This document shows, in pieces, positions 26,683 through 31,786 of a DNA stretch of 64,000 bases. The stretch is from Thermomicrobium sp. 4228-Ro (GTDB lineage: Bacteria; Chloroflexota; Chloroflexia; Thermomicrobiales; Thermomicrobiaceae): assembly GCF_026241205.1 (NCBI RefSeq), contig NZ_JAPFQM010000001.1, positions 1,240,001 to 1,304,000 of the forward strand. The letters are read 5' to 3'. Made by a program: the position numbers and the translations under genes. The notes beneath the pieces were generated by a model. It was not told where the DNA came from. It saw only the letters and a program-made list of their open reading frames with translations, and made no database searches. Each line of letters begins with the position of its first letter. Position 1 is the stretch's first letter.

Positions 26683-27345
26683 TCACTCGGCTGCGATCGG
26701 CAGGAGGCCCTGAGGACGTTCTGGGGCATAGTCAGGACAGGCCAGACGGGCCTCCTGCTCGCTCAGGAATCGTTCGATGAGGTTGCAGCGGTGCGGTTCG
26801 TCCGTGCCCGGCGCGACGTTCTCGCGGAAGTAGATACAGCCGCGGCAGGCTTCGGCGACCTGGAGGAGTCCACCAGCACGGAGGCTCCAGACCACCGCTC
26901 CCAGCCCGCGCTCCAGCGCTGCCAGCTCCTGGTCGTCCAGTCGGGCGAGCGCTTCTTCGAGCGTGTGACCGAAGGTATCGAGCCGTTCGACGACTCGTTC
27001 CCCCTCCGCTGTCAAGCGGAGGAGCGTGACGCGGCGGTCGATCGGGCTCGCCTGGCGGGTGACGAGTCCGGCGCGCTCGAGCGCGTCGATAATACCGATC
27101 GCCGTGACGTGTGTGACACCGAGGGCTTGGGCGAGCCGTCCGACCGAGGTGAGGAACGGCTTGGTGTAGCGGATCCACAGTAACGCTTGGGCTTGCAGCG
27201 GTGTGAGGCCGATTCCCTTGACCTCGTCGGACGAGATCGCCTTGACCGCATGACTCAAGCGGAGCAGCGCCATCGCGATGCGGGCTGCTCGGGAGTGTTG
27301 CCGGAGTTCCGGATCGAAAACGGTCATCGCGCGGGACTCGTCCAT
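26683..27345 (-). CDS. MarR-family regulator with C-terminal Cys4 motif
   Basis: 220 residues. Winged-helix core of MarR type at about residues 25-145 (LTPLQAQALLWIRY, VGRLAQALGVTHVTAIGIID as recognition helix, DRRVTLLRLTAEG as wing). Unlike ordinary MarR proteins (about 150 residues), it continues with a cysteine-containing tail: Cys167-x2-Cys170-x16-Cys187-x15-Cys203. That spacing could bind zinc or an Fe-S cluster. It lies 76 nt downstream of a protoglobin gene on the same strand, with a perfect inverted repeat over its own promoter. A gas or redox sensor controlling the globin is a reasonable inference. Confidence 0.88.
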   Translation of the reverse strand: MDESRAMTVFDPELRQHSRAARIAMALLRLSHAVKAISSDEVKGIGLTPLQAQALLWIRYTKPFLTSVGRLAQALGVTHVTAIGIIDALERAGLVTRQASPIDRRVTLLRLTAEGERVVERLDTFGHTLEEALARLDDQELAALERGLGAVVWSLRAGGLLQVAEACRGCIYFRENVAPGTDEPHRCNLIERFLSEQEARLACPDYAPERPQGLLPIAAE

Positions 27346-27368
27346 CCTGATTCGTCGAGAACGACGTC

Positions 27369-27392
27369 ACTCGTCAGCACGTGACGAGTATA
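27369..27392 (-). promoter_or_regulatory. Operator and -10 of the MarR gene
   Basis: ACTCGTCA, 5-nt centre GCACG, TGACGAGT is a perfect inverted repeat at 27369-27389. On the minus strand it overlaps the -10 hexamer TATACT (27392-27387), where a bound repressor would block initiation. This suggests autoregulation. Confidence 0.6.
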
Positions 27393-27421
27393 GCACCGGT
27401 TACGTTGCGAGCCGACGTGCT

Positions 27422-28009
27422 CTAGAAGACACCCTCCTTCACGTAGGGATACGTCCAGAGAATGGCCTGCAGGAGCACTGCCTTCAGCCAAGCCTGGTGC
27501 ATCCGCTCGACCTGAGCTGGGTCGCTCTCGCCTCGTTCGAGGAACGGGCGCACGGTCGCATAAATGGGGTAGACGAGCGCGATCATGTAGCGATAGTGGA
27601 CGAACGGCGGGGCTCCCTCGACGTTGTCGGTCTGGTTCTTCCGATCGAAGTGGCGGCGTCCGATCTCGTACGCGTAGTCCAGCCAGCGCTGGTCGAACTC
27701 GGCCCGGCAGGTATCGAGGACCCATTGGCCGAATCGCTTGCGTACGCGTGCCAGATATTCCTGGTGTGGCCCCTCGGGTGTGGAGAAGTAGCGGAGCAGG
27801 AAGTCGTGGCCACCGACGAACCCGTACCAGACGTCCAGGAGTTCCTCGACGTGCGGTGCCAGGATCTCACCAGCTCGCCGGAGCGCAGCGGCATCCTCCT
27901 CGGTAAAGAGGAGTGCCTGCTTCAACGTCGCCAGGTCGGCTTCCGTGTACGGAGCACGGGGCAGAGCGGGATCACCGAAGCGATAACCCGGAATCGCTGC
28001 TGTCGTCAT
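27422..28009 (-). CDS. Protoglobin
   Basis: 195 residues, the length of single-domain protoglobins. It follows the Methanosarcina acetivorans protein closely: IPGYRFGD at the N-terminus, LLFTEEDAAALR, WYGFVGGHDFLLRYF, RVRKRFGQWVLDTC, YEIGRRHF and KNQTDNVE, ending WTYPYVKEGVF. His120 falls at the proximal haem-ligand position (F8). It should bind haem and O2, CO or NO. The ATG has GGAGG 7 nt upstream, and a consensus-like promoter lies 43-71 nt upstream. The linked MarR regulator with four cysteines suggests gas- or redox-dependent expression. Confidence 0.95.
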   Translation of the reverse strand: MTTAAIPGYRFGDPALPRAPYTEADLATLKQALLFTEEDAAALRRAGEILAPHVEELLDVWYGFVGGHDFLLRYFSTPEGPHQEYLARVRKRFGQWVLDTCRAEFDQRWLDYAYEIGRRHFDRKNQTDNVEGAPPFVHYRYMIALVYPIYATVRPFLERGESDPAQVERMHQAWLKAVLLQAILWTYPYVKEGVF

Positions 28010-28018
28010 CACTGACCT
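28003..28018. promoter_or_regulatory. Partial MarR-operator-like motif at the protoglobin start
   Basis: TCGTCA-TCAC-TGAC spans the start codon and leader. The halves TCGTCA and TGAC are the same as in the perfect MarR operator at 27369-27389, with one base less between them. It may be a weaker operator or coincidence. Confidence 0.35.
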
Positions 28019-28051
28019 CCTTCTGATCACCCGAATATGTCGGATAGCTAC

Positions 28052-28080
28052 ACAATAGCGATTCCAGCGCTGGTTGTCAA
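28052..28080 (-). promoter_or_regulatory. Protoglobin promoter with palindromic spacer
   Basis: Minus strand TTGACA (28080-28075), 17-nt spacer, TATTGT (28057-28052). The spacer contains the 10-bp palindrome CCAGCGCTGG (28064-28073), a possible binding site. Confidence 0.65.
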
Positions 28081-28521: not shown

Positions 28522-29199
28522 ATGCAACGCGCGACGATCGCACCCGACCGGCCCTCGACGCGTGAGCAACTCCTCACGCTGCTCAAGAAGAGCGAGGGGC
28601 TCACGGCTGATCAGCTCGCTCGCATGCTGGGTATCACCTCGATGGCGGTGCGCAAGCACCTCGCGGTGCTCGAACGAGATGGCCTGGTGACGACGTCGCT
28701 GCTTCGCCGAAAGGTCGGTCGACCGGCCCGCCTGTACCGGCTCAGCGAGCGGGCCGATGCGCTCTTTCCCCAGCACTACGACGCCGTGCTGACGGAGCTG
28801 CTTTCGGACCTCGCCAGCCTCGATGGTCCAGCCAAGGTGGACCTTCTTCTCCGGCGTCGAGTCGAGCGCACGGGCCAGACACTCGCTCGCGAACTCGCGG
28901 CTCTCCCGACGCTCCGTGAACGCGTCCGTCGCCTCGCCGAGACGCTCGATGCGCTCGGATACTACACGACGTGGGAGGAACTCGACGGCGAGACGTACCG
29001 GCTCTGCCAGTATCACTGTCCCATTCGGGAAGTCGCGGTGCACTTCCCCGTGACCTGCGACGCCGAGGTCGAGCTGTACCGCGGACTGCTGCGCGCCGAC
29101 GTCGAGCGCCAGTGTCGGCTCGCTGCTGGCGCTCCCTGCTGCTGCTACGTCATCCGTCCCATCGCGGTGTCCCCAGCCGACGCTCACGCGGCGAGCTGA
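28522..29199 (+). CDS. SufR-like Fe-S transcriptional regulator
   Basis: 225 residues. N-terminal DeoR/ArsR-like winged helix (about 10-75: LTADQLARMLGITSMAVRKH, VGRPARLYRLSE). The C-terminal domain carries the SufR-type cysteine set: Cys162, His165, Cys166 (LCQYHCPIREVAVHFP), Cys179, then Cys198 and a Cys206-208 triplet (GAPCCCYV). In cyanobacteria and mycobacteria SufR holds a 4Fe-4S cluster and represses the suf operon. No suf operon follows here, so its target lies elsewhere. The ATG has AGGAGGTG upstream. Its 3' end overlaps a small convergent gene. Confidence 0.88.
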   Translation: MQRATIAPDRPSTREQLLTLLKKSEGLTADQLARMLGITSMAVRKHLAVLERDGLVTTSLLRRKVGRPARLYRLSERADALFPQHYDAVLTELLSDLASLDGPAKVDLLLRRRVERTGQTLARELAALPTLRERVRRLAETLDALGYYTTWEELDGETYRLCQYHCPIREVAVHFPVTCDAEVELYRGLLRADVERQCRLAAGAPCCCYVIRPIAVSPADAHAAS

Positions 29200-29327
29200 A
29201 GCAGCAGACCGAGCAACCAGAGACTCAGAACCAGCACGATACAGACCAAGATGCCGAAGAGTACGCCGAGCAGCGCGGCGGTGCGAAGATGGAGCTTTCG
29301 GCTCGGCTCACGTTCAGCGCCGGACAT
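29184..29327 (-). CDS. Small single-span membrane protein (47 residues)
   Basis: ATG at 29327 overlaps the end of the metal ATPase by 14 nt, and its stop overlaps the convergent SufR-like gene by 16 nt. The product has a charged start (MSGAEREPSRKLHLR), then one long hydrophobic helix (LLGVLFGILVCIVLVLSLWL) and a short tail. Translational coupling to the ATPase is likely. No family recognised; it may be an accessory subunit of the pump. The call rests on reading frame, membrane helix and overlap only. Confidence 0.45.
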   Translation of the reverse strand: MSGAEREPSRKLHLRTAALLGVLFGILVCIVLVLSLWLLGLLLQLAA

Positions 29328-31425
29328 CGCCCCGTCCGTCCCAGCCGAGGCGTGCGCTGTTTGTCAGGATGAAGAGATCAGGTACCACTTGCGCAGTCGC
29401 TGCTAACGTGGGTGGCAAAACGCCGAGTGCCGCCAGACTCAGGCCGACCAGATTGTAGAGGCCGGTGCTGACCAGGTTCGTCAGCGCGGTCCGGACTGCG
29501 CGACGTGCCCAGCTGATCGTCAGCGGAACCAGCGCCCAGTCCTCGCGGAGGAGGACAACGTCGGCCGTTTCAGCTGCCAGGGCTGTGCCGGCGCGCCCCA
29601 TCGCGATGCCGACGTCCGCCTCTGCCAGCGCGGGCGCGTCATTGATCCCGTCACCCACCATCGCTACGATATGCCCGGCTTCTCGGTACGAGCGGGCGAG
29701 AGCGAGCTTGTCCTCCGGCAGGAGGCGCGCTCGCCAGCCGATACCGAGCTGCGCAGCGAGGCGTGCGGCTGCTCGTTCGTGGTCGCCGGTCAAGAGCTGG
29801 ATCTCGCGCACACCGAGCCGGCGGAGTTCGGCGATCGCCTCGGCGACACCGGGGCGCAGCGTGTCAGCGAACGCGATGACTCCGATCCGCTCGCTGTCGC
29901 GCTCGACGATTGCCACTGTCTTCCCTTGCTCGAGCAACTCGGCGAGCGGTGACCAGTCATGGTCCATAGCGGTCGGGGCGCGCACTCGCACCGTTACGCC
30001 GGCTACCTGGGCTACGACACCGATTCCGGCTTCGTCTGTGAACGACTCGGGTGTACCGGGGATGAGCCCATGCTGACGGGCTGCTATCCGGATCGCCTCG
30101 GCGAGTGGATGCACTGCGTACCGCTCGGCAGTGGCAGCCAGCCACAACAGTTCCTCGATGCTCGCCCGTCCCTCGACTGGTACGATGTCCGTAACGACCG
30201 GCTGGCCGAGCGTGAGCGTGCCGGTTTTGTCCAAGAGTACGACGTCGACATGTGCCAGTCGCTCGATTACAGCACCGCCTTTGATCAGTACGCCGCGGCG
30301 TGCTGCCCGCCCGATGGTCGCGACGAGTGCCATCGGTGTCGCTAACGCGAAGGCACACGAGCAGGCGACGACCAGAACAGCTGCCATTGCCAGCGGATCG
30401 CGCCGTATCGCCAGGGTCATCAGTGCTACGGTGACCACGACCGGAAGGTACTGGTCGGAGAAGCGATCGGCCAGGCGTTCCATGCGCCCGCGCTGCGCAT
30501 GGGCGGTCTCCACGAGACGCACGACGCGCGCGAAGACCGACTCGCTGGCCGGTGCTGTCGCGCACACGCGCACATACCCGCTCCGGACGACTGTCGCGGC
30601 GTACACGGTGTCTTCCGGCCCGACAGTGCGCGGCGCCGGCTCACCGGTCAGCGGTGCTTCCTCGACCGACGCCATGCTAGCGAGCACCAGACCGTCGATC
30701 GGTATCGCCTCACCGGCCCGCACGACGACCACTTCCCCAGGGCGCACGTCCGAAACCGGTACGTCCAGTTCCTGCCCGTTTCGCTCGACACGTGCCCGTT
30801 GTGGGGCGAGTGCCGCCAGGTCGTGCAACGCTCCCCGCGCCTGGCTCGCTGTGACCTCCTCCAGCGCAGCCCCCAGTCGCATGAACAGGACGACGATCGC
30901 TGCAGCTGCCCACTCACCGACCGCCATTGCCGCGATCGCGCCGAGCGTCATCAGCGTATGGGCTGTCACGCGCCGCTGCAGTGTGGCCCGTACGACCTCG
31001 CGGAAGACCGGATACCCCCCGAGCAGGGTCATAGCGGCCCACAGTGGCCAAGGGATCCAACGGTTCAGGAGTTCCAGCGTGCCGGTCAACTCAGCGATGA
31101 CGACGCCGATGACGATACTCGCCGCCACGGCAGCGAGGAATGCGACACGTCGCCAGGCTGTCTCCCCATCTGTACGGTCTTCGTCGACCGGATGCCCGGT
31201 TTCCGCCAGCGCTCGCGCGATCACCGTCTGATCGACGCGAGCTGGATCGATGACCACGATCACCTTCCCGGTTGCCGGCAATGCCTCTACCGCGAAAACC
31301 CCCGATAGTCGGCAGAGGGCCTGTTCGATCTCACGAGCGCACTCCGCACAGTCCAATCCCCGTGCACCGAGAACGAGCGTCGTACGGCCGTCCAACGGCT
31401 CAGCGGGCGTCGATCGGCTGGCCAT
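29314..31425 (-). CDS. Heavy-metal P1B-type ATPase with CSC motif
   Basis: 703-residue metal exporter. One N-terminal HMA domain with Cys26-x2-Cys29 (GLDCAECA), the style of Zn/Cd/Pb pumps. Catalytic parts are intact: PLTGEP (about 258-263), phosphorylated Asp399 in DKTGTLT, a VHPLAEAI motif and MVGDGINDAP. The membrane metal site, normally CPC, CPH or SPC, reads ACSCAFALATP (Cys355-Ser356-Cys357), so the usual proline is replaced by serine. The last helices have an N-x6-YN pattern (as in Cu pumps) but lack MxxSS. The gene overlaps a CmtR-like sensor gene by 26 nt and has AGGAGGTG before its ATG. Cd/Pb/Zn export is the best guess; specificity is unsettled. Confidence 0.93.
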   Translation of the reverse strand: MASRSTPAEPLDGRTTLVLGARGLDCAECAREIEQALCRLSGVFAVEALPATGKVIVVIDPARVDQTVIARALAETGHPVDEDRTDGETAWRRVAFLAAVAASIVIGVVIAELTGTLELLNRWIPWPLWAAMTLLGGYPVFREVVRATLQRRVTAHTLMTLGAIAAMAVGEWAAAAIVVLFMRLGAALEEVTASQARGALHDLAALAPQRARVERNGQELDVPVSDVRPGEVVVVRAGEAIPIDGLVLASMASVEEAPLTGEPAPRTVGPEDTVYAATVVRSGYVRVCATAPASESVFARVVRLVETAHAQRGRMERLADRFSDQYLPVVVTVALMTLAIRRDPLAMAAVLVVACSCAFALATPMALVATIGRAARRGVLIKGGAVIERLAHVDVVLLDKTGTLTLGQPVVTDIVPVEGRASIEELLWLAATAERYAVHPLAEAIRIAARQHGLIPGTPESFTDEAGIGVVAQVAGVTVRVRAPTAMDHDWSPLAELLEQGKTVAIVERDSERIGVIAFADTLRPGVAEAIAELRRLGVREIQLLTGDHERAAARLAAQLGIGWRARLLPEDKLALARSYREAGHIVAMVGDGINDAPALAEADVGIAMGRAGTALAAETADVVLLREDWALVPLTISWARRAVRTALTNLVSTGLYNLVGLSLAALGVLPPTLAATAQVVPDLFILTNSARLGWDGRGDVRR

Positions 31426-31786
31426 CGATGGACACCTCCTGTTCCTGGTGCTGTTCCAGAGGCAAGAGCGTGTACTTCGGGCAGGTCAGGACACCGCGAG
31501 CCGATTCAGCGAGGAGCTGTTCGGCGAGTGCGAACAGCTGTGCACACCGCTCGTCGGCCAGGCGATAGACGGCATGCTGTCCACGCCGCTCGCGCACGAC
31601 CAGACCGCAGTCGCGCAAGCAGCGCAGGTGATTGGACACGTTCGTCACTCCCTGGCCCGTCAGCCGCGCGATCTCACCCACGGTGCGCGGTCCGCCGCGC
31701 AACACCTCCAGGATCGCCAGCCGGCTCGGATCGGCGAACCCGCGAAAGAGTTTGGCCTTGAGTTCGAGGTAATGGCGGTCGAGCAT
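31400..31786 (-). CDS. ArsR/SmtB-family metal sensor, CmtR-like
   Basis: 128 residues, winged helix (about 10-80) with recognition region TGQGVTNVSNHLRCLRDCGLVV cut here as TNVSNHLRCLRDCGLVV. Cysteines 56, 60 and 102 correspond in spacing to Cys57/Cys61/Cys102 of the mycobacterial Cd/Pb sensor CmtR (HLxCLRxCG plus a C-terminal Cys in LTCPKY). The gene overlaps the ATPase gene, so it should derepress the pump when Cd or Pb binds. A promoter and an inverted repeat lie immediately upstream, which implies autoregulation. Confidence 0.92.
   Translation of the reverse strand: MLDRHYLELKAKLFRGFADPSRLAILEVLRGGPRTVGEIARLTGQGVTNVSNHLRCLRDCGLVVRERRGQHAVYRLADERCAQLFALAEQLLAESARGVLTCPKYTLLPLEQHQEQEVSIDGQPIDAR

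Follow-up and report, generated by a model that had tools for sequence, protein, structure and literature searches.

The window, a 64,000-nucleotide stretch within a 2.05-Mb contig of a 3.07-Mb genome, carries on its minus strand a protoglobin gene (pgb) followed, after 76 bp, by a gene for a MarR-family regulator (marR; Table 1). An earlier note on this DNA had described a MarR protein with a four-cysteine tail beside a protoglobin with a proximal His120, and both proteins were found as described. The regulator matches two Pfam MarR models above their cut-offs (PF12802, E 5e-10, over residues 46-106; PF01047, E 9e-9), while no Rrf2 model appeared among its profile matches. Its AlphaFold (AF2) model exceeds a pLDDT of 90 in the core, with a best Foldseek E of 3e-7 and TM-scores by target of up to 0.87 (RovA). 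The 220-residue protein has four cysteines only, at positions 167, 170, 187 and 203. Since its orthologues within the host's family, which are 54-83% identical, begin at Met7 in the alignment, the true start is probably at 27327, for a predicted protein of 214 aa.

The upstream gene encodes a single-domain protoglobin that aligns over the whole chain with its closest PDB match, 2veb, the equally long protoglobin of Methanosarcina acetivorans (MaPgb; found by phmmer), and PF11563 spans residues 23-193 of 195. Its His120 aligns with MaPgb His120, the proximal His F8, and Trp61-Tyr62 stand at the place of the distal-side Trp-Tyr of MaPgb. Unlike MaPgb, the window protein is bacterial and is adjoined by a regulator and a conserved predicted operator. 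No C-terminal signalling or transducer domain of the globin-coupled sensor kind is present in its 195-residue chain. Two further ORFs of the same genome, each of ~640 aa, carry a protoglobin domain (G000:C1:746844-747350 and G000:C1:946780-947277) and are probably globin-coupled sensors. Close to the pair lies a second cysteine-rich regulator (28522-29196), with a SufR/DeoR-like HTH and a C-terminal Cys cluster (...GAPCCCYVI), beside an HMA P-type ATPase gene (29314-31425) and an ArsR gene (31400-31786).

Table 1. Features of the marR/pgb locus, in window positions
Feature	Position	Strand	Basis or remark
MarR-family regulator	26683..27345	-	ORF of 220 aa; Pfam MarR/MarR_2; AF2 model resembles SlyA/RovA/MepR
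MarR tail domain, residues ~160-212	26710..26868	-	Cys/His invariance; AF2 model of the tail
Cys203	26737-26739	-	invariant tail residue
Cys187	26785-26787	-	invariant tail residue (Cys3)
His185	26791-26793	-	invariant tail residue, two before Cys3
Cys170	26836-26838	-	invariant tail residue
Cys167	26845-26847	-	invariant tail residue
Palindrome ACTCGTCA-N5-TGACGAGT	27369..27389	+	over marR -10; not conserved, probably no operator
marR -10 TATACT, separate marR promoter	27387..27392	-	sequence; kept in congeners
Single-domain protoglobin, 195 aa	27422..28009	-	PF11563 (E 6e-35); 2veb (E 3e-69)
Protoglobin ribosome binding site AGGAGG	28016..28021	-	sequence
Predicted operator GTGTAGCTATCCGACAT (family form ATGTAGGTATCCTACAT / ATGTCGCTATCCGACAT)	28037..28053	-	upstream of pgb in the family; cross-phylum core
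Protoglobin -10 TATTGT	28052..28057	-	sequence; overlapped by the predicted operator; layout kept in orthologues
Protoglobin -35 TTGACA, 17-bp spacer to -10	28075..28080	-	sequence; TTGAC kept in orthologues

Recurrence of the gene pair

A recurring link between the two genes, which the earlier note had singled out for checking, was found across one phylum and beyond. Within the host's family, protoglobin is present in the genomes that carry the MarR and absent where the MarR is absent, and the family order is pgb-marR on one strand. Three congeners, in which 6.5-6.9 kb separate pgb from marR or the two are on different contigs, count against the explanation that we favour below. We then have the phylum as a whole, surveyed in one set of 400 genomes, where 74 had a protoglobin domain and 30 had a MarR with this tail (tail-MarR). 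Protoglobin was present in 27 of the 30 tail-MarR genomes versus 47 of the 370 others (Fisher p 4.8e-19). Of 31 tail-MarR copies, 24, spread over 13 families, lay at most 1.1 kb from a protoglobin gene, with pgb first, marR first or the two divergent.

Beyond the phylum, 84,980 species genomes were scanned with a sub-clade alignment and the best 80 loci were taken; these fell in Acidobacteriota, Planctomycetota, Pseudomonadota, Cyanobacteriota, Actinomycetota, Deinococcota, Myxococcota, Nitrospirota, Gemmatimonadota, Armatimonadota and others. Protoglobin lay within 6 kb in 33 of these 80, mostly directly downstream, a proportion that is not a frequency because the loci were ranked by their likeness to a sequence that is itself pgb-linked, and the list is thus biased towards relatives of that sequence. 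Phyla with the pair include Acidobacteriota, Planctomycetota, Actinomycetota, Myxococcota, Deinococcota and Cyanobacteriota, and cultured strains with pgb-linked tail-MarRs include Calidithermus roseus, Corallococcus exercitus, Sorangium cellulosum and Ktedonosporobacter rubrisoli. A tree of 110 tail-MarRs shows clustering of the pgb label, which changes 23 times by parsimony versus 37 in shuffles; well supported branches require at least five changes. We rejected a chance neighbourhood on the strength of this recurrent linkage.

More than half of the best 80 loci have no protoglobin nearby, which also counts against the explanation favoured below. The recurrent neighbours at such loci comprise redoxins (Thioredoxin_3 or AhpC/TSA), a cupredoxin, a glutamine amidotransferase and an exported protein with no assigned family, so the tail-MarR regulon appears to be broader than globins. 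The exported protein (L157:1359-2156, with relatives in 22 loci) has ~250 aa and no Pfam family, and adjoins tail-MarRs without protoglobin. At five pgb/tail-MarR loci from different phyla (L128, L144, L162, L163 and L200), a gene for a glutamine amidotransferase or an AhpC/TSA redoxin comes after the pair. Among the recurrent neighbours we saw no gas-specific genes that would discriminate NO from O2 or CO.

A palindrome upstream of tail-MarR operons

The earlier note had proposed that a perfect palindrome upstream of marR (ACTCGTCA-N5-TGACGAGT) and a shorter TCGTCA-N4-TGAC over the protoglobin start (28003-28016) form an operator with a shared half-site. Both sequences are indeed there, and the palindrome covers the marR -10 exactly, but neither has the marks of an operator. 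The palindrome is not conserved within the genus: four congeners lack it in front of marR, its motif is about as common as the controls across the genus (20 vs 18 in the host genome), and eight perfect inverted repeats of the same 8-bp/N5 form occur in the window by themselves. The shorter sequence consists mostly of the start codon and early codons of pgb and is not conserved. We therefore rejected the two as an operator, a role that we now regard as very improbable.

A different palindrome stands over the protoglobin promoter. In the host's family, ATGTAG-N5-CTACAT (or ATGTCG-N5-CGACAT) covers the -10 of every pgb except that of one genome (G028), with ATGTAGG-TAT-CCTACAT as the family form. 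An inverted-repeat search in other families, to which the motif was not supplied, returned TTAGGAGTCCTAA, TTCGGAGTCCGAA and GTAGGACTCCTAC, which have in common the core TAGG-N3-CCTA or the variant TCGG/CCGA; both forms are symmetric, as expected for a dimer site. Tail-MarR operons of different phyla carry the core upstream, whether they include protoglobin or not. The upstream sequence, 35.7 kb in all, contains 51 strict palindromes, and 1.02 Mb from other parts of these loci contains 15, a ~97-fold difference in density; a strict palindrome is present at 33 of the 58 loci that have pgb and at 15 of the 52 that lack it. Three observations count against the explanation favoured below: the window copy is imperfect, marR and pgb have separate promoters in the window's genus, and 25 of the 58 pgb loci lack a strict palindrome. 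Another sequence, ATGTCGATATCCGGCAT, was set aside as an operator, since it is found again in relatives both with pgb and without it, and was taken as conserved non-operator sequence.

Occurring as it does at tail-MarRs that lack pgb too, the palindrome goes with the regulator and not with the globin. It marks tail-MarR genes whatever their neighbour, and for that reason it is most simply read as the predicted operator of the tail-MarR itself. We infer this binding from sequence comparison, and a different regulator might in principle bind the palindrome, with the tail-MarR uninvolved; that reading has little to commend it, however, as the MarR is what the loci with this core have in common, in phylum after phylum and whether or not pgb is present. 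The position of the predicted operator over the promoter suggests repression.

The cysteine tail and a proposed switch

The tail motif is C-x2-C-x16-C-x15-C with a His two residues before the third Cys, and it is invariant in the tail-MarRs compared. Conservation of the cysteines, which the earlier note had made a point to check, extends from the host's family, where all four and His185 are invariant among MarR orthologues, to distant relatives: the spacing is 2/16/15 in 100 of 115 tails, the last gap (C3-C4) is constant, and the invariant columns of 51 diverse tails are C, C, H, C and C only. Beside these residues stands a nearly invariant Phe.

The tail sequence had no Pfam, NCBIfam or PDB match of note. 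AlphaFold (AF2) modelled the tail alone with a pLDDT of 96-97 in the core around the cysteines (tail-model residues 21-50), and the three top Foldseek matches of this model were the high-potential iron-sulphur protein (HiPIP) 1b0y, the HPAD small subunit 2y8n_B and the HiPIP 1isu, all of them weak (E 0.98 and prob 0.57 for 1b0y, the best). VIA-align likewise gave weak matches, with 2y8n_B best (Z 3.0) and the HiPIPs 8z82, 3h31 and 2hip together with benzylsuccinate synthase small subunits at Z 2.0-2.2; six of the seven rows with Z of at least 2 were HiPIPs or small subunits of HPAD or benzylsuccinate synthase, and one was unrelated. HiPIP-like folds with [4Fe-4S] clusters are described for HPAD-gamma, BSS-beta and related glycyl radical enzyme subunits (PMC12358834). 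In Chromatium HiPIP, moreover, the first two Cys gaps are 2/16, the C-x2-C-x16-C of the MarR tail.

The tail differs from HiPIPs in its last spacing (15 versus 13), in its invariant His two residues before Cys3 and in its fusion to a DNA-binding domain. Nor is there a significant sequence relation: a profile search with 51 tails, taken to E 10, matched no HiPIP family, and hhalign of the tail profile against HiPIPs gave a probability of 7.6%. With no Pfam, phmmer or hmmsearch match either, we rejected HiPIP homology by sequence and kept only a fold-level lead; common descent is unsupported by sequence profiles. Because the structural matches are weak but concordant and the sequence profiles unsupportive, a HiPIP-like Fe-S domain is the leading, if unproven, reading of the modelled tail.

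Taken together, these data lead us to favour, with somewhat better than even confidence, a one-component gas or redox switch in which the tail-MarR represses protoglobin and a HiPIP-like Fe-S sensor relieves the repression on reaction of its cluster. A MarR-family dimer would bind the palindrome [T/G]T[A/C]GG-N3-CC[T/G]A[A/C] over the -10/start region of the protoglobin promoter and repress it, and would repress its own gene where marR shares the operon or has its own site. The C-terminal tail would form a small HiPIP-like domain whose four invariant Cys hold an Fe-S cluster, most likely [4Fe-4S]. NO (or O2 or other oxidants) would react with the cluster, changing or destroying it, so that the DNA is released, protoglobin is made and the gas is bound or detoxified. 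The signal is probably NO or O2, and carbon monoxide is possible. The gas- or redox-responsive circuit of the earlier note thus keeps its Cys tail and its globin link, with the shared half-site replaced by a different predicted operator.

The same operator and linkage would fit equally well if the tail were a structural zinc site and the MarR, controlling protoglobin through the conserved operator, sensed a small molecule in the usual pocket or a metal. Four Cys and an invariant His could bind zinc, zinc-dependent MarRs exist (AdcR/ZitR), and iron in the tail is itself something that we infer. The weak structural matches, however, are [4Fe-4S] HiPIP folds and not zinc ribbons, the 2/16 gaps recur in Chromatium HiPIP, and what adjoins the MarR is a haem protein that binds gas, or else redox proteins, which leaves the zinc site unlikely, though a serious contender. 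We give still less credence to a metal-free thiol switch, in which oxidation would form a disulphide between tail Cys and release the operator, as in OhrR-type MarRs. Some MarRs do sense oxidants through Cys, and redoxins adjoin the tail-MarRs without globin; but MarRs of that type usually use one or two Cys near the N-terminus, and the four invariant Cys, fixed C3-C4 gap, invariant His and near-invariant Phe suggest a coordination site.

The switch with an Fe-S sensor has partial parallels among known regulators. With SlyA, RovA, MepR, OhrR and the zinc-responsive AdcR/ZitR of the MarR family, it would share the winged-helix dimer fold, a palindromic operator over the promoter (here predicted) and control of a neighbouring gene; it departs from them in the extra ~50-residue C-terminal domain, with four invariant Cys and one His, that is in no Pfam or NCBIfam model. 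NsrR is a [4Fe-4S] Rrf2 repressor of the hmp flavohaemoglobin gene, and the proposed logic is similar, an Fe-S repressor whose cluster loss permits transcription of a globin gene. In contrast to NsrR, the tail-MarR is a MarR and not an Rrf2 protein, has its four Cys in a separate tail, has a different predicted operator and would target a protoglobin. A search of the open-access literature, outside which most subscription journals lie, found no described system of this kind and no description of a HiPIP-like fold in transcription control.

Tail-MarRs represent an uncharacterised family that occurs in at least 10 phyla and whose extra domain, possibly of the Fe-S kind, is itself undescribed. 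Several roles have been postulated for protoglobins (PMC4020757), and the biological role of MaPgb is given as unknown in a passage of one study (PMC3680402). A neighbouring regulator with a conserved operator offers a direct route to the signal that induces protoglobin, and the cross-phylum linkage with a shared predicted operator suggests that gas- or redox-responsive control of protoglobin is widespread. On the broader proposal, that MarR repressors with a HiPIP-like [4Fe-4S] sensor occur across phyla and are largely dedicated to single-domain protoglobins via one conserved operator, we are evenly divided. Were it right, protoglobin would be the globin that many bacteria induce in response to NO or O2, with NsrR-Hmp as an independent counterpart, and a HiPIP-like fold would have been put to use in transcription control.

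In one congener, a cytochrome oxidase subunit II-like gene, divergent from an acetyl-CoA synthetase-like gene, has a perfect ATGTCG-N5-CGACAT (L062:1502-1518; G024:C33:31644-31660) ~92 bp upstream and is, from this site, a possible second member of the regulon.
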